From Mya arenaria (taxonomy: Eukaryota > Mollusca > Bivalvia > Myida > Myidae), in the NCBI RefSeq assembly GCF_026914265.1, contig NC_069122.1:32167473-32231472 (forward strand): DNA of 64,000 nt. Reading direction: 5' to 3'. The notes under the pieces were generated by a model, which had not been told where the DNA came from, did not search any database, and worked only from the letters and a program-made list of their open reading frames with translations. This document shows positions 691-31,202 of this stretch, in pieces (position 1 is the first letter of the stretch; each line of letters begins with the position of its first letter). The position numbers and the translations under genes are program-made.

Positions 691-2131
691 TTTAACTTCA
701 AAACTAAATATCCCTGAATTTGTTAATCGTATTAAGTCCGTCGATATATTTCTTGTTTCGAAACCCATTGTGACGAGTTTGATTTAATCAACATTGAGGA
801 CTATGATTGTTTTCTTAAGAATCGTTCCCAAAAAAACACTGAAAAAGTCTGGTGGAATAGCTACCTTTATTAAAAAAGATATTTCAAATCATTTCTCAAT
901 AATACCTACAGACTGTGAGTATATACAATGGTTTAAACTTTCAAAAACTGTTTTCACATCTGATAAAGATATAATGTTTGGTGCAGTGTTTGTACCACCG
1001 GGTAGTTCAAAATATTTTAACCAAACATTACTTGATGCTTTTTATACTGAATTAGAACAGTTTAATTGTAATAACAAATATGTGATACTGTTGAGCGATT
1101 TTAATGCTAGAACTTCTAATTGAATGGATATTGCAGATGTAGATCAGCACATTTATTATTATGTAAATATTGACACGTCGGATGTTTTTGATAGTAATTT
1201 GCGAGAAAAGCTTCGAACCAACAATATGAATTTTGAATGTTGTTCTAAAGATGACACTGTAAATCGTCTAGGTAGACAGCTGATTGACTTTTGTCGAACT
1301 AACGACCTTGTTATTATCAATGGCAGAGCTTTCAATGACAAAAGTAGTCATTATACATGCAATGATATATCGGTTATTGACTATGTAATCGAATCGTGCG
1401 ATTCGCTTTCGTTTTTTCAAGATTTTAGTGTAAGTGAATATTGTCCCCTTCTCTCTGATGTTCATTGTTGTCTCAATTTTAAACTAGTCACAGAAAAATT
1501 AAACTCATCTGATAACGATGCAAATGGAGAAAAAATTCGTAAATGGGATTGCGACAAAAAGCAAGAATTTATTACTATAGACGATGCTATGGAGAATCTA
1601 TCTAAAAATGATGGCAATCTAGATAAAACTAATTTATGTGAAATAGTTAATTCTGTTGAAAGTGCCTTAGTGGACTCTTCCAGAACCACATTCGGGGTGT
1701 ATAAAACTTACCCTCATAAAAGTAAGAATACCAGTAGAAATAATAAAGTATGGTTTAATAATGAATGTAGATCATCTAGAAATAAGTTCCATGCCTGTAA
1801 ACGTAGATATAGTCATAGAAAGAACACTTATACAAAACATGATCTTGTCCAGTCATCGAAAACATACAAGGCTATCATTAGAAAATCCGTAGTTGCACAT
1901 AGAAGAGACATGCGGAGAAAAATCCGATGTATGCGTAGTAAGTCTCCTAAAGATTATTGAAATTACATAAACAGTTTAAACACTAGAAATAAGACTGATG
2001 ATGTTAACTTTGATGTATTTTTTGATTTCTTTAAAAGCTTAAATGCTAATAATGTTGATGCGAATGAGCATGTTGAAGCTGAATTTCCAAATATGAGCAT
2101 AGACCATAATCTTAACAATGAAATTACAATT
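690..2131 (+). mobile_element. Non-LTR retrotransposon, 5' part (endonuclease and start of RT ORF)
   Basis: This is the apurinic-type endonuclease half of a LINE ORF2. The frame runs 'GLTSKLNIPEFVNRIKS', then, after two frame changes before position 860, 'SGGIATFIKK', 'VILLSDFNARTSN' (the DFNAR metal-site motif of LINE endonucleases), 'LIDFCRTNDLVIINGRAF', 'SVIDYVIES' (the conserved D/Y near the C-terminal His) and the basic linker that precedes the RT. From 794 to 2131 one frame stays open apart from TGA codons at 1121-1123 and 1958-1960, the latter probably a former TGG. The last residues, NNEITI, are the usual approach to RT motif 0. The copy is inactive. The clade is probably Jockey/CR1-like, which I cannot settle without a tree. 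It is cut at 2131 by the giant insertion and resumes at 31203. Confidence 0.88.
2128..2131 (+). repeat. Target-site duplication AATT, left copy
   Basis: AATT directly before the left TIR tip, matched by AATT at 31199-31202. It is part of the codons ACA ATT of the interrupted LINE. Confidence 0.7.
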
Positions 2132-5100
2132 AACAAACCGCAAAATGAAAAGGGAAAACGCAACTTTCCCTTTTCAGCATGGTAACATTTTTATTCAACA
2201 GAAACCCTTTGTAATGTCCTCAAAGCATTTCTGTAGGATTAGAAATATCTTTGGGAATATTACCAAACACTTCATAGTATAGTATTGAAGAGTTATAGTG
2301 TGGTTTTCAACATTTCTGGTAATATTCCCAAAAGTATCCATAGTATGCCAGGTTTTCTGGGAATATTACCAATTTGATCTTGAAAATTTGGTAACATTAC
2401 CAAAACATTTTGAAAATATTTCCAAACACTTTGTAGTATAGTATTGAAAGTTGTGGTGGGGGTTTTAACATTTGTGGGAACATTCCCAAAATAATCGATA
2501 CTATTCCGAGAGATTTTCTAAAATATTCTTCAACTATGAAAAGTCACAAATATTTGGTAATATTCCCCAAAAAATGTTGAACATTTTCTGCTAGGATTCT
2601 CAATATAATGTCCAGGTTTTCTGGGAATATTACCAATTTGATCTTGAAAATTTGGTAACATTACCAAAACATTTTGAAAATATTTCCAAACACTTTGTAG
2701 TATAGTATTGAAAGTTGTGGTGGGGGTTTTAACATTTGTGGGAACATTCCCAAAATAATCGATACTATTCCGAGAGATTTTCTAAAATATTCTTCAACTA
2801 TGAAAAGTCACAAATATTTGGTAATATTCCCAAAAAAATGTTGAACATTTTCTGCTAGGATTCTGAATATAATGTCCAGGTTTTCTGGGAATATTACCAA
2901 TTTGATCTTGAAAATTTGGTAACATTACCAAAACATTTTGAAAATATTTCCAAACACTTTGTAGAATAGGATTGAAAGTTGTGGTGGGCTTTTTAACATT
3001 TGTGGGAGCATTCCCAAAATAATCCATACTATGCCGAGAGATTTTCTAAAATATTCTTCAACTATGAAAAGTCACAAATATTTGGTAATATTCCCCCAAA
3101 AATGATGAACATTTTCTGCTAGGAATCTGAATATAATGTCCAGGTTTTCTGGGAATATTACCAATTTGATCTTGAAAATTTGGTAACATTACCAAAACAT
3201 TTTGAAAATAATTCCAAACACTTTGTAGTATAGTACTAAAAGTTGTGGTGGGGGTTTCAACATTTTGGGAACATTCCCAACTTCAACATTTGTGGGAACA
3301 TTCCCAAAATAATCAATACTATGCCGAGAGATTTTCTAAAATATTCTTCAACGATGAAAAGTCACAAATATTTGGTAATATTCCCCAAAATAAGTGATGA
3401 ACATTTTCTGCTATAATTCTAAGTATAATGTTCAGGTATTCTGGGAATATTTCCAATTTGATTTTGAAAAGTTGGTAACATTACCAAAACATTTTGAAAA
3501 TATTTCCAAACACTTTGTAATATAGTATCGAAGAGTTATGGTGTGGTTTTCAACATTTCTGGTAATATTCCCAAAAGTATCCATAGTATGTTGAGAGGTT
3601 TTCTAAAATTAATAAAAACTAGGGGTTGTCACAAATATTAGGTAATTTTTCTGAATTATGAACATTTTCGGCTAACATTTAAAATTCGTCTTGGGAATAA
3701 TGTCCAGGTTTTCTGGGAATATTACCAAAGTTAATCTTGAAATTTCTGGTAACATTACCAAAACTTTTCGGGAATATTACCAAACATTTCAAAGTATAGT
3801 ATTTAAAGTTATAGTGGGAGTTTTCACATTTTTGGGAACATTCCCAAAACTATCGATATTATGCCGAGAAATTTTCAAAAATATTCTTCAACTATGAAAA
3901 GTCACAAATATTTGGTAATATTCCCAAAATAAATGATGAACATTTTCTGCTAGGATTCTGAATAAAATGTCCAGGTTTTCTGGGAATATTACCAATTTGA
4001 TCGTGATATTTGGTAACATTACCAAAATTATTTGAGAATATTACCAGATGAACTAAAAACAAACTAATTCAACAAAAAGCCTTTGAAAACTCCACAAATA
4101 GTTTATGTAGGACCAAACAGTTCATAGTATAGTATTGAAAACTGCGGCTTTTCAACATTTTTGAGAACATTCCCAAAATAATCCATATTATGCCGAGAGA
4201 TTTTCTATATCATTCTTAAACTAGAATTGTCACAAATATTTGGTAATATTCCCAAAATGAATTACGAACATTTTCCGTTATCGTTTTCAAATTCATCCTG
4301 AATACAATTATATTATCTTGAAATATTTGGAAACATTACCAAGACTTTTTTGGGCATATCAAAAGATGAATTGAAATAAAATAATCCAAAAGAAAAAGCT
4401 CCACGTGGGCTGCTGTAGGACATGAAACATTCTGGAAATATTACCAAAATCTTCATTGCATAGTATTAAAATTAACAGCAGGTTTTTCAGCATGTTTGTA
4501 ATATTGCCAGAATAATCTAAAGTATGACTAAAATTGTTCTAAACATTTCTAAAACATGCAATATTCGCAAATGTTTGGTAATATTTCCAATAAAAATATA
4601 AACATTTTATAACAAGAGATGTTTGTCAAACATTAATCCCCACCACCCCCTGAGCGCCATGTTGTCAGGATTATTTGAACAATCGAAATATGCATGGACT
4701 TAAATGACAGCTGATTGGTCATTGCCATTGGATGACTTTAAGGCAGTTTAAAGATTATGACCATTCAAAGTGTGAGGATAGTAGACATAGTGTTCAGATG
4801 ATAACATATATTTGCAGATAAAATGTGTCCTCTTAGAAGGAAATAAGTAAATACGACAACATTTTAATGGCGAATATGAGTTATGACCATGACGTTTGAC
4901 TCTAATAAGTGTTGATTGATAGAAAGACATAGATTACATATTCCTGGTTGTTTAAACCTACTAGAATGTTATTTCAGTATTACAGGTATGTCTCTTGTAA
5001 TTTTACAGTTTGACAATAATTATTGTAAATACAAGTGTGGACTTTCGCATATTATGATTTAAAAAAAAACACAGAAAAGAACAGAACAGACGTTTATAAG

Positions 5101-5407
5101 TCATATACATCAGAACATCGTCTAAACACATACACTTAGGTTTTTGATATCAAATGCTTGTACATGGTTAGTGCTATGGTTAAAGACACAAATATGTTTA
5201 CGTAAAGGCAGCAGTATCAGAGGATGAACTAAATTAATAATAATAATAAGTATTATTAGGAACAACATTACGAATACATACTGATTCTTTAACATAATCG
5301 CAGAGCTTAACCAGCTCACATTTATTGACAGAGTTAAATATATTTCTGGGAATATTACCAACTAAATCTTGAAAGGTTTGGTAACATAACCAAAACAATT
5401 CGGGGAT
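2132..5407 (+). repeat. Left terminal inverted repeat of the giant element
   Basis: 3,276 bp, inverted match of 28200-31198. The outer 450 bp is followed by a run of ~264-bp units whose marker 'ACATTTTCTG' or a close variant recurs at about 2581, 2845, 3109, 3401, 3662, 3940 and 4268. The spacings are 264, 264, 292, 261, 278 and 328. The 292 spacing holds a 27-bp local duplication at 3261-3302. Units are dense in near-palindromes of the type GGGAATATTACCA and TTTGGTAACATTACCAAA, so single strands could fold extensively. The inner part, 4650-5407, is single copy within the arm. No gene is evident; open frames here are short and AT-driven. Confidence 0.9.
2147..2175 (+). repeat. Subterminal hairpin, left
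   Basis: GAAAAGGGAAA (2147-2157), a 7-nt spacer, then TTTCCCTTTTC (2165-2175): a perfect 11-bp stem starting 15 bp from the TIR tip. Confidence 0.75.
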
Positions 5408-5514
5408 TCTTCAAACTTTTCCAACTTCCAGTCAACTATACAGTTGAAATCCTTCGTCTATACTTTTTCTCTAGCCCTGATGATCTGGCTCTGGGATACA
5501 TTGCTATGAAAACA

Positions 5515-5607
5515 TCATCTCCTACATGGCTGTAGACGTTGCACATCCCCTGTTTTCTTAAGCTTTAATAACCTCCGAACTAGTCTGCCTTTTCCTGTTT
5601 TACTTGT
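5515..5607 (-). CDS. Gene 1 terminal exon, basic C-terminus
   Basis: Acceptor ATTATTTTTCAG, then 30 codons beginning TSKTGKGRLVRRLLKLKK and ending QPCRR-stop (TGA at 5515-5517). Phase 0, so it joins the phase-0 donor at 5925. Eleven of the 30 residues are Lys or Arg. Confidence 0.55.
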   Translation of the reverse strand, partial: TSKTGKGRLVRRLLKLKKTGDVQRLQPCRR

Positions 5608-7354
5608 CTGAAAAATAATTATAATTGATAAAACATTATCTATGAACTTTTTTTACAAGCAATTAAAATTTAACACGGTGCATAAATATGAACTGGTCTG
5701 CCTTTTCCTGTTTTACTTGTCTGAAAAATAATTATGATTGATAACATATCTATGAACTGTTTTTTTAAGCAATGAAAATTTAACACGGTGCATAAATATG
5801 ATCTATTTGTTTATTGTTCTTTATTATTTAAAAATAATACATGACTTGATGGGGTAACTTAATTGTAAAAAGTACAGTTTTCTGCAGCAAATTTTCCCAT
5901 TTTTGCAGGCAGTTGAATACATACATGTATGGGTTTCTTTGGTGTTGATGTATGAAGTGGCTGTTGTGGTTCCTCTGGACTAACAACAGCCAATGGTTCA
6001 TCGGACTCCTGAATTAAACCGTCATTTTAGTATTGTATCATGACTTTTTTCCCGTTTTACTTCTTTATGTGCAAAATTAAATATAATGTCAAGAGTTTGT
6101 GCCTTCCAAACTTATCATTCTAATAGAGGTTACACAGGGTCACTGCTTATCAACATTTCTGTGATAATGATCTGAAGCAACACATAAGCCACAGTCTTAT
6201 AAATACTCCTGACTGCCCAGCTGGTATTCAATTCCAATGCACATGTTTTAAACGAGCTGTACATCTTATTTTTTAACTTTTTTGTCGTTCATTAAATTTC
6301 ATATGATTCAGTTAACTTGAACTTATAAGTTGAAGAATTAAATTTGTTGTATACCATTATACTTACATAAACAGTTTAGAATGATCTCTATTTGTGGGAT
6401 ATTATATATTTTTAATAATAAGAGCTATCACTAAATGTCATGAATATCCCCACACGCCCAAGTCAACTCATTTTAAATACGACCTCGTATGACAAAATTG
6501 AAGACCGAACACAAGCTATCGCCAGTTAGGCTGATAAAGAAATCATACGAAAAAAAATGACTTAGATGTCCCTTTATCAATTTCAAGAACTGTAAATAGA
6601 ACATTGTGATTTCAGTTTTAACTTATAATTTATCAATTAGTGTAGGCCAATTCTCTATGTATGCAAATATTTACCCCATTCTCAAGATCATTTTGATGCA
6701 AAAACTCACCACAAGCTTAACACTGTATCAGTCAAAACAGTCAAAACAAAGATCATCTGGGAATACACACATTCAACAGCCCAGCAGGATGGCCCACTAA
6801 GTGGTAATTAATTGAATGGTACAATTTCATGGTGATTTCATGGACTGATTAGCCTTTTTCTCAAAATGAGGAGTAAATGGGAGGCAATTTCTCTGAATTG
6901 TAGAGCGCAATGGACTAATTTTTATTTTTCGCCAACTACCTTAGGATAACGGCAATCTACATGCCAATGGTACTTACTAAAATATTAAAATTCTAACCCT
7001 TGTAGAAAATTAGTTTTCAGTTTAACCGCACAAAGGCATATATTTATAAACCTATTGACCACTATACACGAGGTTATGAACATTTGCAATCCTACAGTTA
7101 ATGCCGCTACTGAGCATCAAGCTGATGCTCGGGCTTATCAGTGGAACTAATCTAACATAACTGTAAACTGACCACTTGACCCTTTCCCTGTTGGGAGCTG
7201 TTTGTCTGATTAATTTGAGAGTAATAGCTGTTCTTGTCTTGAGATTTGGGCCATTTTATGTTAGGAGGTTTTTCTTGGTATTTCAACTTTCGCTATCTTG
7301 ATTATTAAAATAATTTTATTACCGAATGCTTTTGTATAAATTTTGTATATCATA

Positions 7355-7413
<59 letters not shown>

Positions 7414-8005
7414 CGGTAGTCCAAAATCCACTATACTGACGTCCATCAAGTATCATTGTGCAATGTTTAAATGACGTCATAAAACAAGTTTGTCATGAAT
7501 GTAACATTTATTACGAAATCATGTATCTTTTAAGTGATTTAAACCATTGATATATATATTAATAACATGTCGATCCGGAATGTCTTATTCAACTGTTGTT
7601 GATGTTTTAAGATATTGATTTCAGTCAGTAAGCGCCTCGTGCGACTTGAGTCGAATTCCATCTCCCTTATCAAAACGCACTACTAAGTTATTACCCTATT
7701 ATAAGATGCTTTAATATACACATATTTTTGCTTTTTCGCAAAGAGAAAATAATATGGAGAAAATATATATTTCTGGAAAAATGCTCTACATACATTGTAT
7801 TACAGAAACATGTAATAAAAGTTCAGTGACTGCTGTGATTAAAAATTTACATCAACTGTGCATGTAGGAGTGCAAACGATCAGAAAAAGTTGGATAATTT
7901 TAAATATTATATTAAAATAAACGTTCAAATATACTGGTATGATATCAAAAGTCCGGGCATAGTGGTTTAAGATACAGTTTTGCTTTGTTGTGATCATTTC
8001 TCATA

Positions 8006-8067
<62 letters not shown>

Positions 8068-11000
8068 GGAAAGCTTCCATGAAGTGTTTATAATGTTTAA
8101 TCACTTTTCTAATGAAGAATGTTCTCACACAACAATGCAAATTAAGAAGAGAAATCATACAAAGAAAACAAACGTTGATTTAACTGTGTCAGTAAAGAAG
8201 ATTTTAATCGCTGTTTCAAAAGCTATATTTTAGGATATTAATTTTCTAGAAAATTACATAAACTAAGATACACAAACATAAAGAGGGCTTATATAATTCA
8301 CATGTAAAGTGGGCAATGATGTTTTTTTGAAATGCATTTTAGCAAAGACCACAATGTCAATGTATCAATAGAAACCTATGAAAGTTCAGTTTCAACATCA
8401 AGGTAATATAGTGCTCAGATTACAAAAAAATAAGTTGTAAGCTGTGTTATAAGTAATAAGAATATCTAAGTACATCAATATATGACCTTATTTTTTGGCA
8501 AATGGTTAAAATATTACATTTCTTTTAATATTACATCTTATGCCCCCATAAAATGGGGGGGGGGGCATATAGATTTGCCCTTGGTCGTCCGTTTGTCTGT
8601 GATTCCGTCTGTAGGTAATATGCCAACTTGTGTTACTTAAAACTCGATTAAATTACCTAAAGTCCAGAAACCTCGGGCGTTATTTAGGTAAGGACGTTTT
8701 GCATCTCGGGTTACGTTTCCCACTGCACTTAGTAGAGTTATTATAATTTAATCAACAAAGTATTTCACCTGAAAACATACGAACCTCAATCCAAGTGATG
8801 ACTTCAGAGTTTACAAAATTTAGACTTTATAATTATGAGACTGTTAGCAATTGGATAATGTTGCTATGATTTAATACGGTTGAATTACGCGTAATCATCC
8901 TAAAGTGAAAAATAGCAATGTATCAAGTTTGCAGTATTCTTTTCTTGTCCAAAAATGCAGCAAAAGAAAGTATTAATTTTCATTTGTTGTGAAAATTGCG
9001 AAAAACATATTCTTTAAATATAACCATATATAACAAACTTCATTATAACTGCATTATTGACACTGTTAGATATACATGTAATACAACATAAATTATTATG
9101 TTTTATAAAACCTAAATATCCATTTCATTCAATTGTACATTTCATTGGGTATAATAGGGTTGATATTGATACTTTTGTAGTAAGTAGACAGCTAACGTTA
9201 TCTTAATGAAAAGTATAAATAAAAATCCCATGTATAAAGTTATTCCGTTCGAAATTAAATCAAACGATAAGACTGAATATATTTTTATTTACTTCAATGT
9301 TTCATTTCTTTGCTATGGAATCAATGATCATGTTTGTTTTTTTTTTCATTTTCATAAATAGTTTAAAACTAGAGTAAATGATATAAATTGCTTTTCTATA
9401 GTCATCGTGAATTTTAGTGCAGAAATCGTACTGAAGATGCTCTCTGATAAATATCCTTCTGACCCCAAAACTAACCAGGGAAGAGTGGTTAATGGGCCCC
9501 TGCTGACAGAAATTGGTTATCTCAATTACATGCATAATAAACACCTAGCTGTGAAGTGAGGCTTCGAAAATGGACCAACATCCAGAAACCTGGCATAAAC
9601 TGCAGGACTGCTTGATATGGGCACATTGAAAATGATCCATGGAATAATCAAAATAATAATGGTAACATGAATCGTATCTTGTTAACCAGTTAGAATGTAC
9701 TTACTCAATGGAATTCATAAACACTTACTAGATAACCAGTTGAAGCTAAAGGCCAAAATGCATTTATGAATATGTGGTAACACGAATGTTATCTGCCGGT
9801 AATTATGTTCCTAATTAAGTGGAATTCGCTAACCATAACTAGATAACCTGTTTATGCAGCTAAAAGGGAAAAAGGTGGCAGTTCCGAGCACTTTGAAGCC
9901 AGTTTTTAGTATTGTGATATTTATCTTACAGAGAACATTTTCTATTAACTAGATAGCTTGATAATTATCGCATAATTAAGTGGTTAACACGAACAACTCG
10001 CAGACGTTAACAGATTATCTGACGGCAGTTATGTCCCACCGTATGTATCAGACACATGAGGCCGATAACCTATGTTAATCATTTTGTTATTGTGTAACTT
10101 GTAAAAGTCAATCTCTGGAATGCTTTGATTGTGCAAACATTAGCTCCTACATCCTTTAAAGAGTCACATCAGTTATAAAAAATGTATAACTAAATAAATA
10201 GTAATAACATGATGATTTCATAAATGTGCATATATACATAATTATTGAAAAAAGTATACCTTTACACGTTTAGTAAACGCATGCAAATAACATTTAATGA
10301 ATGTAAATGTAATACACGTTGTGAATTGAAGAATCACATTTAATCACATATTAAAAAATATTGCATTCCTGAGAGGGCAATAGGAAAACATATCAACAGC
10401 ATAACATAAATAACTGCACCTTGTTATGCTTGTAACGTGGGAGAATACTCCTCGTATTGCTCTTTCAAGAATGCAATACTTGTTTAATAAATACGAGCTA
10501 AATATTTCTGAATCATGTGTTTTTGAATTTCACTACAAAAGCTTCATGTACTAAGTATTTCTTTTTTCTATTTTACATCGATTGAACTGAAAATGTCCAT
10601 CGATTATATCAATTATCCCTCTCAATGACTGAGTCCCGGGTCATAAACAAGTAGGCCAACCGCCTTTATTATGGGACCGTATAAATCAAAGTCGTATTTT
10701 CCTACCGGGATTCAAACCAACGACCTTAATAGTCTGGCACCGAATTAGCCGGGTATAATGCAGGAAAAACAGGAACAAATTGTTCAAAGTTCTGATTATC
10801 AAACACTCAGCCATTTCTTAATTTCAAGTATGCCTCTGAATCACGGTATTGGGTGAATTATAAAAACTCTATAGAGCATTAATGAACAAAATATCACAAT
10901 TATATAATGCGCATTCCATTTACATGAATTCCATGCGCATATAATCAAATAGCGCCTTTGCGCCGATAATAATGTATATGATTAACCGAAGAAAATCGCA

Positions 11001-12712: not shown

Positions 12713-12830
12713 TTTTATTATCAGTATAATTGAACACAGGTTATTGTTAATATGAATGCACATTTGTATAGTTTTGGGTCACCGGATCGATTTGTTGATT
12801 TGTTGATTGCCCTTACAGAAGTATGCCAAC

Positions 12831-12905
12831 CCTTCAGGTAGCTCATAGTGGTTAAGCACCTGACTTGCAAGCAGGGGGTTGAGGGTTCGAGTCCCCAGCT
12901 GTTTA
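12831..12905 (+). repeat. tRNA-like sequence, probably a SINE head
   Basis: A-box-like GTAGCTCATAGTGGTTAAG and B box GGTTCGAGTCCCC lie about 50 bp apart, with an anticodon-like loop CTTGCAA (TGC, Ala). The acceptor stem does not pair, so I do not call a functional tRNA. Confidence 0.5.
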
Positions 12906-12909
12906 TAGC

Positions 12910-14800: not shown

Positions 14801-14803
14801 CTT

Positions 14804-15104
14804 TTTCACCAGTCAATTTGTAACCACGCCCCCCTCCCACATATCCGGGGAAATGGGCCGTATTTTTACCTTTCAGGTAGCCCGGTAGTGCCGGGTGAAT
14901 GAGGTGGTTTTGTCTTTGCGCCAAAAATAGCCAGGAATAGTCTTTACTTGGGTGCGGGGGAATTTTGCGAGGATTTTACCACTAGTTTTTTCCCCGAAGG
15001 ACGGGGATCATGGCTGGACCAAAAGTCAAAGTCCCCGCTAATCCACGGACCTGGGAGGAGGGGGGGGGGGGGTTGGGGCGTGGTTACAATTGACTGGTGC
15101 ATTA
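14804..15104. mobile_element. GC-rich MITE, copy 1
   Basis: Terminal inverted repeats CACCAGTCAATTTGTAACCA and TGGTTACAATTGACTGGTG bound a ~300-bp body with GGGG tracts. The same family lies at 47628-47852 and 50359-50580. No coding capacity. Confidence 0.7.
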
Positions 15105-15393
15105 CGTTGATATACAAGTATGCAGTGTCTATGTAAATGAACGTTACCTCCGTATTATTGAATGCAGCAAACGTATGTTTTAGGTACAATCTATGCATTA
15201 CTATTATTTTGTAACCGTAAGTAAACTATATATAATCAGCAGCATAAAATTTCAAGTTTTCGTTTCAGAATTTTATTATATATGTTTTAGATCAATCCAA
15301 TCAGATTAAGAAAACAATGCAACAAATTGTTGTTTTTTTTATATTTCTTTTTTTAGCATCACATTTACACTTTAAGAACTTCTTATTGTTGCG

Positions 15394-18300: not shown

Positions 18301-18640
18301 AATGTACTGTCAGGTTTTTGTCATGGTAATGTCATGTTTTCACAATCGTACTGTCATGTTTCCACCATGGTAATGTCATGTACTGTCATGTTTTCACCAT
18401 AGTACTGTCATGTTTTCAACATCGGAATGTCATGTTTTCAGCATGGCACTACTGCCTTTTTTGTCATCTTACTGTTATGTTTTTGTCATTGTACTGTCAT
18501 GTTTTCACTTTCTTACTGTCATGTTTCCATCATGGGTATGTGAGATTTACATCATTGATTGTTTTGTTTTAATAATCGTACTGTCGCGTTTTCACCATCG
18601 TTCTGTCATGTTTTTACCATCATACTATCGCCTTACGGTG
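15394..18640 (+). repeat. 22-bp minisatellite with 677-bp higher-order repeat
   Basis: The monomer is TCATGTTTTCACCATCGTACTG with variants (TTTTCGCCATCGTACTGTCG, TTCATCATGGGACTGTCGCC). About 145 monomers. A rare variant, CACCATCCTGCTTTTAT, recurs at about 16048, 16724, 17402 and 18079, spacings 676, 678 and 677, so blocks of ~31 monomers were duplicated as units. All three + frames are nearly stop-free because 22 is not a multiple of 3 and one 66-bp cycle reads all phases. The many overlapping 'YCHVFTIVLSCFHHRTVMFS'-type frames are therefore not genes. Confidence 0.92.
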
Positions 18641-18924
18641 CGCATGCACATAAAATAATTTGCCCTTCATGTGAAAAAAATATCGGATACGATCACCATC
18701 ATTGTAAATCTCCAATCATAATTGCGTCAAACTTGATGAAAATAATACAGATGTATAAGATACGTCTCGTAAACTCATCGTTCGTTTGAAAAAACTAATG
18801 ATAGCACAGCCCTAAAGCAAATGGCACAGTCTGAAGTAAAATGACGTAACGTCATATTTACTTTATAAAAGCACCTGTCTTTTTATGAATAATAATACTT
18901 CTACAACACTTCCTGCTATTGGAT

Positions 18925-19240
<316 letters not shown>

Positions 19241-19663
19241 TCATCACCTACTACTACCTCTAACTACTTTTAATTCTACTTGCTACTACAAACACCACCA
19301 GCACCACAACCACTTCTATTACTACAACTTCCACTACTATTACTACTCTTGCGATCTCTATTCTGACTATTTGCTTGCTCATGCTGCTATTCTGTAATAC
19401 AACTATTCCATTCGGGATTTAACGTGTTTGAGAACCAAGGCAACCATAGAAACCCGAATATGTCAGTCTTATACGTTGTATTTTTAGAACAAAAACATCT
19501 GAAATAATATTCCACAAGCACAACCTAAAGTTTTTTCCGGGAAACCGACCCTCCGTAGCAAACTTGGTGTAAATATGATGATTATTGAACATCAAATCTA
19601 TGATAACCGAACTATTATTTGGGGTACATTGAATGCTATGTAAAGTAAGTGCAAATGTGCAAC

Positions 19664-19767
<104 letters not shown>

Positions 19768-20060
19768 GCGTATTGTGATTATGAGAATGTTGATTATGAT
19801 AGTTACGATAATGCCACATTGGCGACAACTTTTACAATAATACAAATCACAATGCGACGACGATGACGACAACTAAGATAATGATAACCATATCACGACG
19901 CAACATGACAACAATGATTACAATGATTATGTGATGACCACAACTAAGATAATGATATTTATAGTAGCAATTAGGCAACAACGTCATTTATGCAAATCAT
20001 GATGCAATGATGACGTGAATGGTGCTAACGAGATTATAATGCGTAGTTGCTGTTGTTTTT

Positions 20061-20065
20061 GATGT

Positions 20066-20109
<44 letters not shown>

Positions 20110-20120
20110 GTGATGAAGAT
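20061..20120 (+). repeat. (GAT)n microsatellite
   Basis: About 17 GAT units with two interruptions. Confidence 0.9.
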
Positions 20121-20202
20121 AATGATCTTCGGTTGAAGATATATTTCAAAGACACGCACCCCTGAAACCAACATATTAGCACTTGGAGGGGAAATCTTCT
20201 AT

Positions 20203-20420
20203 GCTCATGCGCACCGGAAGACAATAGAACAATGATTATAACACGACAATACGATGATGACTTCATGACAGTGCGATGATGGAAATACAATTGTACTTCA
20301 ATAAAAACGCGATAGTACGATGATAAAAACACTATAGTGCAATAAAGATTACACGACTGTACGATGATAAATACAAGACAGTACGATGATGAAAACACAA
20401 CAGTACGATGATGAAAACGC
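20203..20420 (-). repeat. Second, inverted patch of the 22-bp minisatellite
   Basis: On minus it reads TTTTCATCATCGTACTGT repeated about nine times with variants. Its end on minus, CTTCCGGTGCGCATGAGCAT, matches the end of the large array on plus, CTTACGGTGCGCATGCACAT (18632-18651). The same tail on both suggests one repeat family in which the tandem part varies in copy number. Confidence 0.75.
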
Positions 20421-20429
20421 GGTGATAAC

Positions 20430-21633
20430 AGCAGACAAAATAATGAAAGAAAATTAACATGCATTAAAAGAAACCATCCTTTTATACTACAGTTATCAAT
20501 TTCCAAGAAAGAGTCTAACATTTGCTAGTAGGGGTCAGTTCCCACCAAACCTGCTCTATCATAGTTTATTACGCTGTTAAACTAGTGACTGGCTGATTTG
20601 ATTATCCATGCTGGTATATAGTAGTAAAGTTATGATAGTTGAAATAATTACTACAGTCCTATGCAGACCGCTGTTTGATCTTACTGCAGGATTCACCAAA
20701 GTTGTGGGATTTATGGAGGATGAATGACTTGCTAACTGAATTGCCAATCTCAATAACACCTATAATAAACACCTAAATTATTTAATCATTCACTTCGTTC
20801 TATCAGATAAATGCTACTCAGTTGCAGTCTGAGGATTGAAAAATGCGTCTCTTTGTAAAGTCAAGTTCTGGTTGACTTGCCGGCAACCATGTACAAGCAC
20901 ATATTACTGAAAATAGAAAACTGGTAAGATAATTATAGCCGTCTCCCCGGCAATCTGTCCATTTCGATTTTTGTGTGAGTGAAATTACAAAATTTTGAGC
21001 GACTCAATAAAACTTCATATATTAATTGATTACGAACAATGAGAGAGAATACGAACGCTATTTAAGTATTTTGAAGTATATTTGCATCATGTTTAATTTT
21101 AATGAAATTGATAAAAATATGTTTTACTTGGACTATTGATGATTGATTTGATTTATTTAATTTAAACACGATTAGCTCAACTCTCATGAGTTATACACAA
21201 ATACACCTTTTCGAAGACGTCATCATATCAGAAAGTTTAAATGGTTTACGGTTAAACAGACATTGTTATCCTTAAATAATTCTTTATATTTCACACAAGT
21301 TAACTACACCATGATATAAATTGGTAAAACATTTCTTAAACGAGGCACTTAATGCACCATAATCAGTTGGCTTTGACACAAAGCCCCTGGGATGTAGATG
21401 GCAATTAAATTTTGGTATTAACTATCCAGCCACCAGAGTGCTAGATCTTAAATTACCCCAATGCCATGCTTATCAAACTGATCACAAGAATTAGTTATAT
21501 ATCATTATGCTGAACAAACTTGCATCGCGTCAGTGTCAGTGGCTAGCAGGGGAAAGTCTTATTTTGCATACGCACTGCCCTCTCCATTCCTAAGTTCACT
21601 GAGCAAGCGCATGCATGTAAAATGTAATTTTCA
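20430..21633. other. Region between core repeats and gene 2
   Basis: Probably holds the promoter or 5' UTR of gene 2. I see no clear core promoter element and no extra exon. Confidence 0.35.
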
Positions 21634-21735
21634 ATGAAGTGGAGTATTGATGGTCATATCTTCCAAACTAAAGAACAAAAATTCAATGGAAGAGTAATCA
21701 AGCATGTTCATTGTGGCGGCATTGGTTGCATTAAG
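21634..21735 (+). CDS. Gene 2 exon 1
   Basis: ATG start, 34 codons to ...HVHCGGIGCIK, donor GTAAAT, phase 0. The first in-frame ATG was taken; an upstream non-coding exon cannot be excluded. Confidence 0.6.
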
Positions 21736-24700
21736 GTAAATACTACTATATTTTTGTTTATTTGTAAAAAGATATGATTCTTATGGTGTTATTGCCTTTA
21801 ACCCTTTGTGAAAGCGGATGCACAGTTTTAAAACAGTTTCTGCCTTCATGAAACAGTGTAAAAAAATACCTTTGGCAAACAATTTTCGCTAAGTTCCACA
21901 TTTGCATTCCTTACACATTTTACTAATTTAAAACATATAATTTATGTTTGGCTTTTCAAACAACATTAGTTTTTATTATCATCTTTCTATCAACAAATTG
22001 CAATGCTATAATTAAACATTTATCAAGTATTATATGAGTTGATATGAGCAATTTGCAACTAAGTTTTGCCACGCATATTTTCCTAGCAAAGTTTATAAAC
22101 GCCTTTTTAAAAATAATAATTATAATAATAATATCATATAAAACTTTTCAGAAGCACTAGTTGTGATGATTATATTTATCTTGTTTAAAATAAATATCTT
22201 TCACAATTTTCCAAAAAACAGGTTTCCTTTGAAGATGATGAAAGCATTCAATGCAAGTTAGAACAGTTTATTTCCGGTACGAAGCCAGGATTCAGGCAAA
22301 GCAGATCCCTGTTCTTGAAATGGTTAGATTTCAAGGTAAATTTGTTCAATGTATGCTCACTTCGCCCATTCTTAATAACTTATAACTTACTTCAGGTCGT
22401 CTAACTATTTATTAGTAAAACATTTTTATAGTAAAAGTAACCTAAGCCTTAATCCCAGGTGCATTGCGACACAAGGTGGTTTACATTTCTGTTACGCTTT
22501 GTGACTCTGGCTCATATACTTATAAAAAAGTGACAGTTGCACTTTCCTAATCACGACTTTTTAAAGTGACACATGGAAGCCGGGCAAATACCAAATAATT
22601 CGTATATTTGTCATGCAGCATTTTTGGCAATATTTTTTTACATAATTGGACTTCATGTTGTTGTTCTGTTTATTTAATTAGCGCAACTAGGTATCTTTTC
22701 TGAAGTTTTTTAATGTTATATTTGTCTAGTTGTTCTTTAGTCATCACTATTTCAATTTATTTAAATCTTTCATGATTTTGAAATGGATCGTCTGTAGCGT
22801 TTGCTATGAATCCATGTCAAACATCCATTTCTTTGTATTTAGATGTATAAAACTAAATTAATATCCGTGGTTTGAGGATTGTTTAATGGTGTTACAAGGA
22901 ATGATAATATTTTAGGCACACCTGTGAACAATCTCTTTGCCCAGATTATCACTACGAGCTGCAATACTTTGTTGTATTTCAGGGATGCGAGATGCAACAT
23001 ATATCCCGATATCAATCACCTCGAAAAGAAGTGCATCGCTAAAACGCGGCAAATAAATGAGGTATAGTAGCCGGATTGCCCATATAGTAATGTTTTAAAT
23101 GTTTTTAATTTGCTGGGAAAATCACACACAATAAGTTGTAAATACAAATATAACAAGCAATTTCTTTTCACACGCGTGAAGACTACATGAGATAAATGCG
23201 AAATTCCATACATTATTATGTTGTTGAATAGTATAAGGGTTTAATTGTAATTGTTTATTTTTCAGTTACAAGGGGATATTCAAAATTTGAAAGAGAAACT
23301 GGTAAATAAAGACAGGCAGATTGCAGATATGCAGGTAATATGCCGTTAAATCTTAAATGCTTAAAATGGTAAATGTTTTAAACTATTTTGATTAATTATT
23401 GACATGTCTTTTTATTGTATCGTAATATTTCCATTTCTGTTAAGAGACCTTGTCGGTGTTCAACTTTTAAAGTAGTGTAAATAAATAAGCATAGGCCCTC
23501 TATTTTGTAACAAGTATTTCATTATATATGAACAACCTTATAAAGAACATAAAAAAGGAAAGCACACATGCTTATCTATAAATATTATTCATAAAATGAA
23601 CATGAATTCTCTGTGAATATACGCCTATACACATTTTTAGAGAGTATTATTTTTTGTACTATTAAAATGTTTATTCAATATTTCCTATGTCGATTTAGAA
23701 AAATATGGCAAATTTTGAGGCCATGAACATATATTTCAGGCAAACCAAAACAGAATGTATGCAGAGAATGATAGTCTAATGCTCAAGAGTGAAAATGGCA
23801 GAACAGACAGCAGCAAGGGCAAGGGCTTCCCTACCAAAGGTACCGTTTTTTACATGGAAATAAATTATATTCAATGAAGCTCGTTATTTCTCATGATTAT
23901 TATGTATATGTGCATGTTTATAGCTTCAACTTAAATAACAAAGTCCACAGCCTCTAACCACATACATAAATGCCGCATCTTATCAACCTAGAAGTAAATG
24001 GGGTACCTATTATGACCATATTCCTTGCATTTGTTTTAGCTCGTCTGTTTAAGAAAGATGAGCTTACATCATGAAAACGTGTTAAAGTTGATATATGTGT
24101 AAGATGATTGACAAGTATATTATAAATCATAGTAAACCAAAGGGTCAACATTCATAACTCATGTAGTTCTTATTACTAATTTGCATTTTGGTAAAATATT
24201 GTTACATCAGCAAACAATGCCAGATTCGATAAGGTTTGTTTGTCTGAAGAAATACAACTTAAAACTAGGCTGAATTCATTTATTACATGTGACTGATAAT
24301 ATTTGATAGACATACTTTTCTCCTACCTCAGATAAGTAGATCCAAAAATTTGGCCATGCAGGAAATTAGTATCTTGCCCTCGGGCAAAGATAAAACAAAG
24401 ACCCGTATGAAATAAAGTTGAACACTGCTATTCCGAACACCGTTTATCCGAATTGATCGCTATTTATTGTTTTTGGTCCCGAATTTACTCCTACTTTGTT
24501 TAACTAAATTTTTAATCTTTAATCCGAAATCGCTAGTCCGAATTAATCGCTATTCCCAAGTAAAAATTACGGGCCCGATTTGGTATTTCACACCTATTTA
24601 TCAATTCTTATTTCGAACCATATCATGTCATAGTTTTTCACACCATACTTCAATTACACTAGGGCATGGGCTTGGGGTGACAATGGAGCACAATTAGCGC

Positions 24701-27282
24701 TTGTTAAAGAATGAAATTGAGCACGCGTATTTTACAATCATTGATGTCAGAAAATTAGCAATTCATTTAGGTGATGTAGTGTGTATATAATTTCTGGTTA
24801 ACACAACATGAATATCAATCGAAAATACGCATTGCTCACTTAACCCGCTACTGAATAATCCGTACTATGTTCCGAATGCATACATGTGCTGTCAATTTGT
24901 TTTAAACGTTTTATGTTTTAATAAAGAAGTAAAAAAAAACCGAATTATTTGTCATTTAGTACATAATAAATCAACAAATATTTTTGTATACGAAATATCA
25001 CTCAAACCGAATGTATCATATTGGTAACGTGTAACCGAAATTGCAATCTTCACGACTTAGTATATCACGTCATCTATTATTCGCGAACGCTGTCAATTTT
25101 ATGAAAGTTGTTAATCCGAAATATCGTTATCCCGAAATATTTTTTGGGTCCCTACGATTTTCAATTAACGGTGTTCAACTGTACTTTTTTATTGTCATAA
25201 AGAGTTCCAGTAAAAATACATTTTTACCTCATTTTGTTAAACTGAGATGGGAGAAAAAGCATGTACCAACTTCAACTTCAACTTCAAAGTTTATTGACAA
25301 ATCGGCATATAACAATACCTTTGGCCATTAAACATATTTAACATTGTACAGACGGCCGAATGATATTTTTTACAACACAATGACATATATAGTTATAAGG
25401 AGTATATGTTTTTAAAGAACATATAGATAGATATTAAGCAAAAGTTAAGAAGCAGGTATATTATCAAGCTGTTCTTGTCTATTTAGCATAGCATGATGAA
25501 TATATTTAGAAACATTTCTAATTGTTTTTGGTTTTTCACACGACATTAACTTAATAAACTTTTGTATAGTCGGGAATGCTACATTTATAAATAGCATACC
25601 ATAGCCGCCCGTATAAGAAAGGTTCGTCCCAACACTCGCTCAGGGTGTTCTGTGAAATCTCAGTAAACCTAGAGTAAACCTCGTTTCCACAAAACACCCG
25701 ACGCACAGGTTGGTAATGAACCTATCTTACGCTCTCGGCCATGTAGGATACTAATAATAACGTTGATACGTAATCGAATTAGCTAAACACTTCCAACTAA
25801 AAAAGAGAAATTGCCAACCGCAAAATTAAGTTAAAGTGTTGTATAGTTCAGTAGTTGTAAAGATTGTATGAAAAAAATAATTGAATTTAAGAAAAACAAC
25901 TTATACATGCTAAATTATTAATGTTTATTTTCCATGATTTCTTTACCAAAGATAACTGGCAAAATCTTATTTTATGTAACAATTATAACTGAGCATAATA
26001 AATGATTTTAGTAATGAACTGAAACTTTCCTACCAGTATTCAAATGAAAACTTGGCAAGTGGCATACATGTATTGCATATCACATTCATGTTGTATGCAA
26101 AATAATAACAATATGCAATATAATACTCAGCCAAATTCATAAATTTGGCAACCCAAGAAATAGTGCAAAAAATCATACATACTTAAGAGCAAAGTGTACT
26201 TTTGCAATTGCTTTAGAGCCCCGGTCCTGTGGTTAGACCATATACTTTAAAATCACGCTGTTGCGGATTCGAATCCCGCCTCCGTCCAGCATATTTTTAT
26301 TATGGTTTCCCCACCTCTGTTTGTTATATGCTTTTCATAAAGTTAATCGTTATTTTAGTACAGCAGGATTCAAAAATATATTTTCAGACAGCAGAAACTG
26401 AAACTTTAGCCGAAGTAGCAGTCCATATGACGGTATGTTCAAGTATAAATACAGAAATATAAAGCCATTTGTCTATTAAAGTATGAAACATTATATAACA
26501 AACCATTTGTCTATTAAAGTATAAGACATTATATAACAAATATACTGAGCTAAAAATGATCATTAATTGGATTTTGGCTGTAATGGCAATATGTATATAT
26601 AGTATACACTGTAATTTTAAGAATACACCACATCTATAAAATCTAGGAAATACTTATATGTTTGGTTCGTCTTCAGGTGGCAGTTGTGGAATATACAAAC
26701 CAGAGTGTGTATATTGGAGAAATGGAGGGAAACATGATGACCTTTGCCCGTCGGCCAGTCGGAAAACTAACAAGTTCTCTCAACGTAAAAAATAAACAGA
26801 GCGTGATTTTGAATCCCTTGGACAAAATGAAAATTAATCGTCGATTTTTAATTGCAAAATTCGAAGGATGTAAGAAAGACAACGTAATACAATTATCGGA
26901 AATTCAGATTCAACTTATAAATCAGTCCGTAGCTTCGTATTGTTCCAAACAAGCTTCAGACATCCAAAACCTCATATATTTGGTATGATCATAAATATCA
27001 GATAACAGTTTGCCTGTACATATCTTTTAAACCTTGTTTTTGTATTTCAGTAAGCTTACATTGTGTTTACATTTTGTAAATATTTGTACATTTTATGATT
27101 GAGTTATTTTTTTATATACTTTTGCTTTGCCTTAAAGCCTATTTTATTTTAGTAAGTAAATAATTCAAGTTTCATTTTTTGAACAGAGAGAATCGGTCAA
27201 TGGCGAAGTCGGGAATCTAGTCTTGGTCTCTCGAGAGCCATTCCAGTATGCTAAGCTCTTACCCTACATAACTCATTATTAA
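21634..27282 (+). CDS. Unrecognised multi-exon gene on plus, inside the giant element (gene 2)
   Basis: Eight exons by eye: 21634-21735, 22222-22335, 22983-23061, 23266-23334, 23740-23839, 26388-26432, 26677-26982, 27187-27282. All have AG acceptors and GT donors; most junctions are phase 0. The product begins MKWSIDGHIFQTKEQKFNGR, has a short coiled-coil-like middle (HLEKKCIAKTRQINE, LQGDIQNLKEKLVNKDRQIA), a ~100-residue block in exon 7 and ends PFQYAKLLPYITHY. I know no family for it. Two joins do not fit: exon 2 (ends phase 0) to exon 3 (open only if entered after 2 nt), and exon 5 (phase 1) to exon 6 (phase 0). Either exons are missing, in the latter case in the repeat-filled intron 23840-26387, or the gene is decayed. 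Its 3' end lies 0.9 kb inside the right TIR, mirroring gene 1. Confidence 0.6.
22222..22335 (+). CDS. Gene 2 exon 2
   Basis: Acceptor CCAAAAAACAG, 38 codons (VSFEDDESIQCKLEQFIS...FLKWLDFK), donor GTAAAT, phase 0 at both ends. Confidence 0.65.
22983..23061 (+). CDS. Gene 2 exon 3
   Basis: Acceptor TTGTATTTCAG. Open reading requires entry after 2 nt: DARCNIYPDINHLEKKCIAK then TRQINE, donor GTATAG. Entering in phase 0 gives a TAA after 19 codons. Confidence 0.5.
23266..23334 (+). CDS. Gene 2 exon 4, coiled coil
   Basis: Acceptor TTATTTTTCAG, 23 codons (LQGDIQNLKEKLVNKDRQIA DMQ) with a hydrophobic heptad, donor GTAATA, phase 0 at both ends. Confidence 0.65.
23740..23839 (+). CDS. Gene 2 exon 5
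   Basis: Acceptor TATATTTCAG, ANQNRMYAENDSLMLKSENG followed by a Ser/Lys/Gly-rich tail, donor GTACCG, ends phase 1. Confidence 0.6.
24411..25181. mobile_element. pogo/Tigger-like MITE nested in the repeat block
   Basis: Ends AGTTGAACACTGCTATTCCG and, on the other strand, CAGTTGAACACCGTTAATTG; TA lies at both flanks. No transposase frame. The interior has degenerate copies of the end sequence (TCCGAATT motifs). Confidence 0.6.
25268..25593 (-). mobile_element. 5'-truncated LINE 3' end, minus strand
   Basis: On minus it ends ...GACAAATCAATAAACTTTGAAG-type sequence: an AATAAA followed by a (TTGAAG)n tail. It is bracketed by GCATGTACC (25259-25267) and GCATACC (25594-25600), a plausible imperfect target duplication, since the family copy at 41117-41126 has this site uninterrupted. 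Confidence 0.6.
26214..26290 (+). repeat. tRNA-like sequence, possible SINE head
   Basis: GTCCTGTGGTTAGACC and B box GGATTCGAATCCCGC in tRNA spacing. The anticodon stem does not pair, so not a functional tRNA. It lies in the intron before exon 6 of gene 2. Confidence 0.4.
26388..26432 (+). CDS. Gene 2 exon 6
   Basis: Acceptor ATATTTTCAG, TAETETLAEVAVHMT, strong donor GTATGT, phase 0 at both ends. Confidence 0.55.
26677..26982 (+). CDS. Gene 2 exon 7
   Basis: Acceptor GTTCGTCTTCAG, 102 codons from VAVVEYTNQSVYIGEMEG to SDIQNLIYL, donor GTATGA, phase 0 at both ends. This is the longest exon of the gene. A beta-rich start followed by a helical end is my inference from composition. Confidence 0.7.
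27187..27282 (+). CDS. Gene 2 terminal exon
   Basis: Acceptor TTTTTTGAACAG, 31 codons (RESVNGEVGNLVLVSREPFQ YAKLLPYITHY) and TAA at 27280-27282. Joins exon 7 in phase 0. Confidence 0.6.
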   Translation, partial: RESVNGEVGNLVLVSREPFQYAKLLPYITHY

Positions 27283-27289
27283 AGTTCTT

Positions 27290-28199
27290 TCTGTGATTTC
27301 TGTGATGGAGTTTTTTTTTATTTATCCACTCCTCTGTGCATAACGACTGACATATTTGAGAAAGTGCCGTCTTTGGTATTCATGAAATATTACATTTATA
27401 CCCTTTATTGTCACTTGATAACAGTTCGAAGGCCATCATGCTTTGGCTCATCTACTCTGTGTTTATTATATTTATTTTTTTTCATTTTTTTTTTCATAAT
27501 TTGATTGTATGAAATACCCCTTCTTACAACAACATTTGTGTCCAGCATAAGCTGACTCAGAGTCTGATATAGTGACATCCTTGTAGGAAATATAAATCCA
27601 CTTTTAAATGTTTGCTATAGGTTGTTTAGCATATACTATAAAGTATTCCGATCAAGAACATGTCTTGTAAATGACGAGAACGAATGATAGAAGTATTATT
27701 ATTTTCTTGAATAGATAACTTTAAGCAGATACTTTAGGTTTATTTTAATGATATGGAAAGAAATATAGAACAATAAAAAAGTATTGAACTTGCTCCATGT
27801 TTACTGATGGAACATTCACCAATTATGTTAATCATGTTCTCGATGACTTTTTTTATTTAAGCATACTTTAAATGTACTGTTCATAACATACACTTAGTTG
27901 TTTGTCATTCACGTTGTGAATAAATTGTTTAAAACTGTATATGTGTTATAACCGAAAAATGTTCAATACTGCTATTCATTTAAATGCCCCAGTCTGAGAG
28001 GCAAATAGATTTCACTTGTCTGTCTGTTCGTCGGTTCATTCAGCTGTCACAAAACATTTTGTCACACGTATCTCCGGCAGTAAATTAGCAAGAGTCGTAA
28101 AACCAGCATGTCTAGTTTTGCATCTTAAGTTCTATTTGTCTGTTGGCTGTTTGTATGTTTGTCAAATAATCATATTTGTATTTCACTTCATCTGGTAAC
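27290..28199. other. 3' flank of gene 2 up to the right TIR
   Basis: No exon. The part 27990-28130 (GAGGCAAATAGATTT, TCTGTCTGTTCGTCGG, GTCACACGTATCTCCGGC) is another copy of the bivalve-type repeat seen at 8540. Confidence 0.45.
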
Positions 28200-31198
28200 A
28201 TCCCCGAATTGTTTTGGTTATGTTACCAAACCTTTCAAGATTTAGTTGGTAATATTCCCAGAAATATATTTAACTCTGTCAATAAATGTGAGCTGGTTAA
28301 GCTCTGCGATTATGTTAAAGAATCAGTATGTATTCGTAATGTTATTCCTAATAATAATTATTATTTTTATAAATTTAGTTCATCCTCTGATACTGCTGCC
28401 TTTACGTTAACATATTTGTGTCTTTAACCATAGCACTAACCATGTACAAGCATTTGATATCAAAAACCTAAGTGTATGTGTTTAGACGATGTTCTGATGT
28501 ATATGACTTATAAACGTCTGTTCTGTTCTTTTCTGTGTTTTTTTTTAAATCATAATATGCGAAAGTCCACACTTGTATTTAAAATAATTATTGTCAAATT
28601 GTAAAATTGCAAGAGACATACCTGTGATACTGAAATAACATTCTAGTAGGTTTAAACAACCAGGAATATGTAATCTATGTCTTTCTATCAATCAACACTT
28701 ATTAGAGTCAAACGTCATGGTCATAACTCATATTCGTCATTAAAATGTTGTCGTATTTACTTATTCCCTTCTAAGAGGACACATTTTATCTGCAAATATA
28801 TGTTATCATCTGAACACGATTGAGCACTATGTCTACTATCCTCACACTTGAATGGTCATAATCTTTAAACTGCCTTAAAGTCATCCAATGGCAATGACCA
28901 ATCAGCTGTCATTTAAGTCCATGCATATTTCGATTGTTCAAATAATCCTGACAACATGGCGCTCAGGGGTTGGTGGGGATTAATGTTTGACAAACATCTC
29001 TTGTTATAAAATGTTTATATTTTTATTGGAAATATTACCAACATTTGCGAATATTGCATGTTTTAGAAATGTTTAGAACAATTTTAGTCATACTTTAGAT
29101 TATTCTGGGAATATTACAAACATGCTGAAAAACCTGCTGTTAATTTTAATACTATGCAATGAAGATTTTGGTAATATTTCCAGAATGTTTCATGTCCTAC
29201 AGCAGCCCACGTGGAGCTTTTTCTTTTGGATTATTTTATTTCAATTCATCTTTTGATATGCCCAAAAAAGTCTTGGTAATGTTTCCAAATATTTCAAGAT
29301 AATATAATTGTATTCAGGATGAATTTGAGAACGATAACGGAAAATGTTCGTAATTCATTTTGGGAATATTACCAAATATTTGTGACAATTCTAGTTTAAG
29401 AATGATATAGAAAATCTCTCGGCATAATATGGATTATTTTGGGAATGTTCTCAAAAATGTTGAAAAGCCCCAGTTTTCTATACTATACTATGAACTGTTT
29501 GGTCTTACATAAACTATTTGTGGAGTTTTCAAAGGCTTTTTGTTGAATTAGTTTGTTTTTAGTTCATCTGGTAATATTCTCAAATAATTTTGGTAATGTT
29601 ACCAAATATCACGATCAAATTGGTAATATTCCCAGAAAACCTGGACATTTTATTCAGAATCCTAGCAGAAAATGTTCATCATTTATTTTGGGAATATTAC
29701 CAAATATTTGTGACTTTTCATAGTTGAAGAATATTTTTGGAAATTTCTCGGCATAATATCGATAGTTTTGGGAATGTTCCCAAAAATGTTAAAACCCCCA
29801 CTATAACTTTAAATACTATACTTTGAAATGTTTGGTAATATTCCCGAAAAGTTTTGGTAATGTTACCAGAAATTTCAAGATTAACTTTGGTAATATTCCC
29901 AGAAAACCTGGACATTAAAAAAAAATGTTCATAATTCAGAAAAATTACCAAATATTTGTGACAACCCCTAGTTTTTATTAATTTTAGAAAACCTCTCAAC
30001 ATACTATGGATACTTTTGGGAATATTACCAGAAATGTTGAAAACCACACCATAACTCTTCGATACTATATTACAAAGTGTTTGGAAATATTTTCAAAATG
30101 TTTTGGTAATGTTACCAACTTTTTAAGATCAAATTGGAAATATTCCCAGAAAACCTGAACATTATACTCAGAATAATAGCAGAAAATGTTCATCACTTAT
30201 TTTGGGGAATATTACCAAATATTTGTGACTTTTCATCGTTGAAGAATATTTTAGAAAATCTCTCGGCATAGTATTGATTATTTTGGGAATGTTCCCACAA
30301 ATGTTGAAGTTGGGAATGTTCCCAAAAATGTTGAAACCCCCACCACAACTTTCAGTACTATACTACACACTAAGTGTTTGGAATTATTTTCAAAATGTTT
30401 TGGTAATGTTACCAAATTTTCAAGATCAAATTGGTAATATTCCCAGAAAACCTGGGCATTATATTCAGATTCCTAGCAGAAAATGTTCATCATTTTTGGG
30501 GAATATTACCAAATATTTGTGACTTTTCATAGTTGAAGAATATTTTAGAAAATCTCTCGGCATAGTATCGATTATTTTGGGAATGTTCCCACAAATGTTA
30601 AAAAGCCCACCACAACTTTCAATACTATTCTACAAAGTGTTTGGAAATATTTTCAAAATGTTTTGGTAATGTTACCAAATTTTCAAGATCAAATTGGTAA
30701 TATTCCCAGAAAACCTGGACATTATATTCAGAATCCTAGCAGAAAATGTTCAACATTTTTTTGGGAATATTACCAAATATTTGTGACTTTTCATAGTTGA
30801 AGAATATTTTAGAAAATCTCTCGGCATAGTATCGATTATTTTGGGAATGTTCCCACAAATGTTAAAACCCCCACCACAACTTTCAATACTATACTAAAAA
30901 GTGTTTGGAAATATTTTCAAAATGTTTTGGTAATGTTACCAAATTTTCAAGATCAAATTGGTAATATTCCCAGAAAACCTGGCATACTATGGATACTTTT
31001 GGGAATATTACCAGAAATGTTGAAAAACACACTATAACTCTTCAATACTATACTATGAAGTGTTTGGTAATATTCCCAAAGATATTTCTAATTCTACAGA
31101 AATGCTTTGAGGACATTACAAAGGGTTTCTGTTGAATAAAAATGTTACCATGCTGAAAAGGGAAAGTTGCGTTTTCCCTTTTCATTTTGCGGTTTGTT
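28200..31198 (-). repeat. Right terminal inverted repeat of the giant element
   Basis: 2,999 bp, reverse complement of 2132-5407. Both arms diverge abruptly at the same inner point, cggggat at 5401-5407 and atccccg at 28200-28206. By eye there are six sub-repeat markers here against seven on the left, so the 277-bp length difference is about one unit. Other differences are scattered substitutions and small indels, for example 8 extra bases near 28822, suggesting a fairly young pair or gene conversion between arms. Confidence 0.9.
31155..31183 (-). repeat. Subterminal hairpin, right
   Basis: Mirror copy of the 11-bp stem and 7-nt loop at 2147-2175, again 15 bp from the element's end. Confidence 0.75.
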
Positions 31199-31202
31199 AA
31201 TT
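31199..31202 (+). repeat. Target-site duplication AATT, right copy
   Basis: AATT directly after the right TIR tip. The LINE frame resumes with GAT AAA ATC right after it, so exactly one of the two AATT copies is extra. Confidence 0.7.

Follow-up and report, generated by a model that had tools for sequence, protein, structure and literature searches.

What kind of mobile element puts 29 kb of DNA, bounded by 3-kb inverted arms, into the middle of a retrotransposon? The question is raised by a stretch of 64,000 nucleotides (nt) from the bivalve Mya arenaria (assembly GCF_026914265.1, contig NC_069122.1, positions 32,167,473 to 32,231,472), called the window below. An earlier note, made from the sequence alone, had placed a foldback-like transposon inside a long interspersed nuclear element (LINE) and described the empty site as still readable. 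We conclude with good confidence that the window carries a non-autonomous copy of a giant M. arenaria DNA transposon family, and that this copy was mobilised in trans by a DDE transposase (named for its aspartate-aspartate-glutamate triad) containing the Pfam domain of unknown function DUF7869.

The insertion site can be read precisely. The bounds given earlier, 2128-31202, place the element but count in both AATT copies; the exact bounds are 2132-31198. AATT was read at 2128-2131 and again at 31199-31202, in agreement with the earlier description. Excision of 2132-31202 (the insert plus one AATT) fuses ...NNEITI to DKIIV..., closing the LINE frame between TI and DKIIV as had been claimed. A reverse transcriptase domain (RVT_1, 1.4e-32) lies in the right-hand LINE part. 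At the protein level, the join was spanned by all 120 listed LINE relatives (120 of 220 were listed); none is gapped between the T of EIT and the twelfth residue beyond the join, and three have gaps slightly upstream. Because this LINE copy has stops and frameshifts, the closure is not proof on its own. A TTAA duplication (2130-2133 / 31197-31200) is compatible with the bare sequence, but it is contradicted by the LINE frame and excluded by the other copies of the element, whose duplications differ.

We searched the M. arenaria genome (1,216,080,610 bases, 18 contigs) for further copies. The element tips are AACAAACC; the tips constant in the family read AACAAACCGC. A 39-bp tip with at most three mismatches gave 151 matches (78 forward, 73 reverse) and the reversed control none, showing that many other loci share the tips. 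Among the matches listed there were 39 inverted pairs, spanning 4.4 to 39.8 kb (median 27,467 bp; 34/39 within 20-32 kb). Tips were identical across 20 nt in 9/9 pairs and across the 10 nt compared in all 39/39. An exact 4-bp target duplication flanks 33 of the 39 pairs, as compared with 40 of 1482 mispaired control flanks. These duplications vary in sequence, are 89% A/T (67% across the window) and lean towards AWWT, with A at position 1 in 18/33 and T at position 4 in 22/33. The recurrent tips and the excess of exact duplications show that the window element belongs to a transposon family with a median copy of 27.5 kb. Since 38 further tip pairs exist, an assembly join at the window element is very unlikely. 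Of the outcomes that the earlier note named as refuting, two were tested and neither was borne out: other loci have these tips, and the LINE relatives preserve the spacing at the join.

The remaining pairs have one mismatch (three pairs, including C8:45044031, where an exact 6-bp repeat is present) or more (three pairs), and at one of these six loci each flank is an inverted copy of the other. The loci C7:60031952-60055386 and C7:71342832-71366179 have a common right flank and different left flanks, a pattern suggestive of ectopic recombination or duplication; one has an exact duplication and the other a mismatch. The 39 pairs are therefore not all independent.

The two arms, at 2132-5404 and 28203-31198, have the roughly 3-kb length ascribed to them and align as inverted repeats with 97.3% identity across 2811 columns; the left arm is longer by one 264-bp unit. 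Of the 64 palindromic 12-mers GGNAANATTNCC in the window, 63 lie in the arms, 33 on the left and 30 on the right, and mononucleotide shuffles of the left arm contained a mean of 0.01. With one mismatch allowed, GGTAATATTCCC was found 41 times against 0.27 expected.

Seven members, the window copy and six others (three of these with some stretches missing), were colinear when compared end to end. The C5 copy has three extra stretches: 7.2 kb beside the left arm, 6.05 kb in an intron of a second gene, and 1.2 kb that is mostly common to the C11 copy. The 7.2-kb stretch carries on its minus strand a spliced DUF7869 gene (PF25273; 2.5e-26 and 6.6e-29). Its joined exons match the annotated Mya protein P0126 at 93% over 91% of their length, and the two gene models disagree in places. 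By tblastn, residues 54-149 of P0126 were found in 6/6 non-C5 members, and nothing beyond residue 149 matched in any of the six at E 0.01. All six remnants break off after this residue, right at the arm's inner edge. The same two stops lie in one frame in the window, C7a, C11 and C9 copies (4/6), and in C16 and C8, whose alignments are split, stops stand at matching positions. Judged by these shared endpoints and stops, the window lineage derives from one deletion and then multiplied without catalytic exons of its own. A deletion rather than an insertion is indicated because 7/7 members have the early exons in colinear position, with one and the same codon as the break point in the six that lack the rest.

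The earlier note saw no transposase here, and the reason is apparent: the window copy is an internally deleted derivative of an element whose gene is recognisable in C5. To look for a complete transposase in the window copy, 5400-15390 and 19300-28200 were scanned in six frames against Pfam, outside the central arrays (15390-19300) and the arms. All matches fell below cut-off; no viral gene reached the cut-off in these frames. One further locus, C9:19097364, matches the C5 DUF7869 exon at 76% with one stop, and sits behind a family tip with 3 edits, followed by an arm whose similarity to the C5 arm is about 92%.

DUF7869 proteins (77 in our set) come from bivalves, lancelets, sea urchins, corals and metagenomes. 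Their predicted fold is DDE-like and fits the RNase H fold. D324, D408 and E447, a candidate acidic triad, are conserved, and E447 and D450 are each present in 42/42 aligned sequences; since D450 is invariant too, a DDD triad is possible. The VIA-align structure list contained no hAT or MULE chain, which excludes nothing. A PDB sequence search with DUF7869 alignment A3 and an NCBIfam scan of six DUF7869 proteins were uninformative.

When the C5 DUF7869 exon was searched against the genome, 31 match rows came back, and these led to a second, diverged DUF7869 family. Two near-identical C16 loci (99.9% over 14 kb) have nine sites of a palindrome, GTTCGGACGACCGAAC, beside the DUF7869 gene. Together with its flanks, GTTCGGACGACCGAAC occurs at 96 places in the genome, 48 per strand (control 0), clustered close to DUF7869 rows. 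Inverted cluster pairs flank the gene at three C9 places, C16:41.93-41.97 Mb and C17:20.95-21.01 Mb. Clusters are one-sided at C16:41.26 and C5:52.22 Mb, and pairs at C5:16.78 and C17:22.30 Mb have no gene row inside. When 16 arm ends were aligned, several being copies of one another, 12 ended alike in ...GACGAGCTT; one matched to GACGAGC only, one was shorter, and two (C17 left clusters) were unalignable. Read inward, the tip is AAGCTCGTCC, with a hairpin GGGATCG..CGATCCC from position 21, and its core has 36 genome matches (control 0). Twelve of the 31 DUF7869 rows lie near marks of this second family, 3 near the first (two loci) and 16 near neither.

Target duplications were examined at seven new pairs with four candidate element starts. 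The start AAGCTCG gave an exact 4-bp duplication in 6/7 pairs (ACCT, ATAT, ATAC, GTAT, CAAC, CTAA) and in 0/42 mispaired flanks. Because the two C10 loci represent one region copied in inverse orientation, the count comes to five of six independent places. Two other pairs comprise one on C9 in a TA repeat, which is uninformative, and one on C16 without a duplication. The CTAA pair, C17:2966311-3009744, encloses the DUF7869 row at 3005157 and has a tip with two mismatches; it is a 43-kb DUF7869 element with the variant tip GCTCC. The C10 loci (6005706-6009050 and 8170290-8173635) are 3.3-kb elements whose flanks are reverse complements, either one insertion duplicated inversely 2 Mb apart or an assembly duplicate. 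Thus two families with different palindromes have in common the domain, the AA..TT tip form, a hairpin and the 4-bp duplication length. DUF7869 is probably the transposase of these giant elements.

Where does such an element belong? With inverted repeats of fixed tips and a short duplication of fixed length, it probably works like a DDE/D cut-and-paste transposon. Foldback (FB) and Galileo share the long, internally repetitive inverted arms and the many non-autonomous copies, but FB (MULE) makes 9-bp and Galileo (P-type transposase) 7-bp duplications; the 4-bp duplication and the DUF7869 gene set the Mya element apart and reject both. Elements of the Spm/En type also repeat a short motif in both orientations near their ends, as arrays of transposase-binding 12-mers, with CACTA tips and 3-bp duplications. 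In the Mya element, by contrast, the motif is palindromic and its arrays extend over 3 kb. Teratorn and Polinton are likewise large with inverted ends, but they make TTAA or 6-bp duplications and carry viral genes, none of which reached the Pfam cut-off in the scanned frames of the window. Chapaev and Ginger, named as candidates in the earlier note, fit the 4-bp duplication only: Chapaev tips are CAC.. and Ginger tips TGT..ACA with an rve integrase, whereas the Mya tips are AACAAACC and the scanned window frames held no transposase or integrase (rve included) at the Pfam cut-off. TTAA, found in just 2/33 exact duplications, rejects piggyBac, Kolobok and Sola3.

By its duplication, the nearest group is Sola2, whose catalytic triad is DDD, a possibility that the invariant D450 allows for DUF7869. 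The 4-bp AT-rich duplication and a DDE/D enzyme, predicted in the Mya families, are alike in the two, and the AWWT reported for Sola2 (PMC3627910) is present here as a lean only. The size and the long palindrome-filled arms are unlike: curated bivalve Sola1 elements average 5.4 kb and rank among the longest of a bivalve survey (PMC10294476), as against 27 kb here, and the passages covered make no mention of such arms for Sola. Judged by description, the Mya families could be an unrecognised Sola branch. That we have renamed a known superfamily, most likely Sola2, is on balance unlikely though well worth keeping in view, and it is compatible with a DUF7869 transposase mobilising the window copy. 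No prior description was found in the open-licence literature. A review of giant eukaryotic transposons counts Helitrons, Polintons and Teratorn among the large DNA transposons, with no element of the present type in the passages covered (PMC6431247). We consider it evenly poised whether DUF7869 defines an undescribed animal superfamily with elements up to about 40 kb, AWWT-leaning 4-bp duplications, and in each family a palindrome of its own, present in many copies in long arms next to a terminal hairpin and serving as an assembly platform by which a transposase holds ends tens of kilobases apart.

The DUF7869 gene might instead be a passenger or an unrelated nested element, with the real transposase supplied in trans by another family. 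The catalytic exons are missing from most copies, the first family has just two close DUF7869 loci, and the extra 7.2 kb of C5 might conceivably have been inserted. We hold this to be improbable in view of the colinear early exons with their common break point, which point to a deletion, the recurrence of DUF7869 in another family whose palindrome differs and whose duplication length is equal, and the predicted DDE-like fold. An inverted segmental duplication or assembly artefact in place of a transposon, as the 4.4-kb locus C7:63179805 with its mutually inverted flanks might suggest, is practically negligible given the constant tips, the short direct duplications at 33/39 loci and the closing LINE frame. 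At that locus (L109, C7:63179305-63184721), the inverted duplication is 99.3% alike and takes in the arms together with about 420 bp of flank. This head-to-head palindrome either arose as a genuine hairpin product or reflects misassembly.

Under the preferred reading, a DUF7869 transposase would be made by rare gene-bearing copies and would bind the tip, the hairpin and the palindromes of both arms; GGGAATATTACC and GTTCGGACGACCGAAC are putative binding sequences for DUF7869 or second-gene proteins. The enzyme would pair the ends, excise the element and reinsert it in A/T-rich DNA through cuts staggered by 4 bp. With 20-40 kb between the ends, the dozens of sites in each arm may help the ends to be located and kept together. 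Copies of the window type, their catalytic exons lost in the shared deletion at the arm edge, would then have spread in trans.

These results suggest a function for DUF7869 and explain a class of very large homogeneous repeats. Repeat annotation based on open reading frames (ORFs) would be prone to overlook them, because no complete transposase is encoded in the six copies examined other than C5. The bivalve survey, which worked from profiles of 17 known superfamilies and from single ORFs at least 300 amino acids long (PMC10294476), would also tend to miss a gene that is spliced and carried by few copies. In M. arenaria transmissible cancer, five DNA transposons are reported to be amplified in one sub-lineage relative to the other (PMC10663159). 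A homogeneous 27-kb family in this host is a candidate source of rearrangement.

Table 1. Features of the element and its insertion site (window coordinates)
Feature	Position	Strand	Remark
Whole element, 29,067 bp, non-autonomous member	2132..31198	.	tip identity and colinearity with 6/6 other members
Left target-site duplication AATT	2128..2131	.	
Right target-site duplication AATT	31199..31202	.	
Interrupted LINE ORF, 5' part, two stops	803..2131	+	
LINE 3' part	31203..33340	+	RVT_1 ~31438-32157
Left arm, terminal inverted repeat	2132..5404	+	264-bp tandem units, 33 palindromic 12-mers GGNAANATTNCC
Right arm	28203..31198	-	30 palindromic 12-mers
Subterminal hairpin, left tip	2147..2175	+	11-bp stem GAAAAGGGAAA/TTTCCCTTTTC, 7-nt loop; read in sequence
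Subterminal hairpin, right tip	31155..31183	-	mirrors left tip
Truncated DUF7869 exon (P0126 residues 83-149)	5404..5604	-	two stop codons; ends at arm edge
Upstream DUF7869 exon remnant (P0126 residues 54-82)	5922..6008	-	
Candidate exon pair (11592-11645, 11944-12065)	11592..12065	-	weak; low divergence among members
22-bp-unit array	15393..18626	+	inverted relic 20232-20418
Second gene, spliced, probably out of frame here	21634..27282	+	exons 21634-21735, 22222-22335, 22983-23061, 23266-23334, 23740-23839, 26388-26432, 26677-26982, 27187-27282

The element also contains a second gene with GT-AG junctions. Its exons 1-2 are out of phase with exon 3, and the later phases join only if exon 6 begins at 26395. 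Since relatives place this start at 26388 and exon 5 has one base more in the window, C16, C9 and C7a copies than in C5 and C11, the gene is probably out of frame in the window copy. All five matches to its protein are from M. arenaria. Seven of nine exon blocks are less variable than all nine intron blocks, and the blocks 23266-23334 and 26388-26432 are more variable. A coiled-coil look suggests that the protein may be a DNA-binding partner for the palindromes. An AlphaFold2 model of its relative P0001 (predicted local distance difference test score 38) and a PDB sequence search were uninformative. Within the candidate exon pair, the stretch between the two exons has equally low divergence.

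Scans with Rfam and for tRNA gave nothing informative, as did tip searches of genome_contigs and viral_contigs, and the top windows in a codon-position scan of the seven members were microsatellites. The 6.05-kb stretch, present only in C5 among the seven, has two ORFs (L039:6426-6920 and 7695-7967) without a Pfam family above cut-off; the 164-amino-acid ORF has what we take to be a ParB-like look, unsupported by Pfam. The central 22-bp array (3.2 kb) and its inverted relic are highly variable among members. To the right of the element, tandem arrays with 59-bp and 179-bp units lie at 41573-42626 and 60199-60990.
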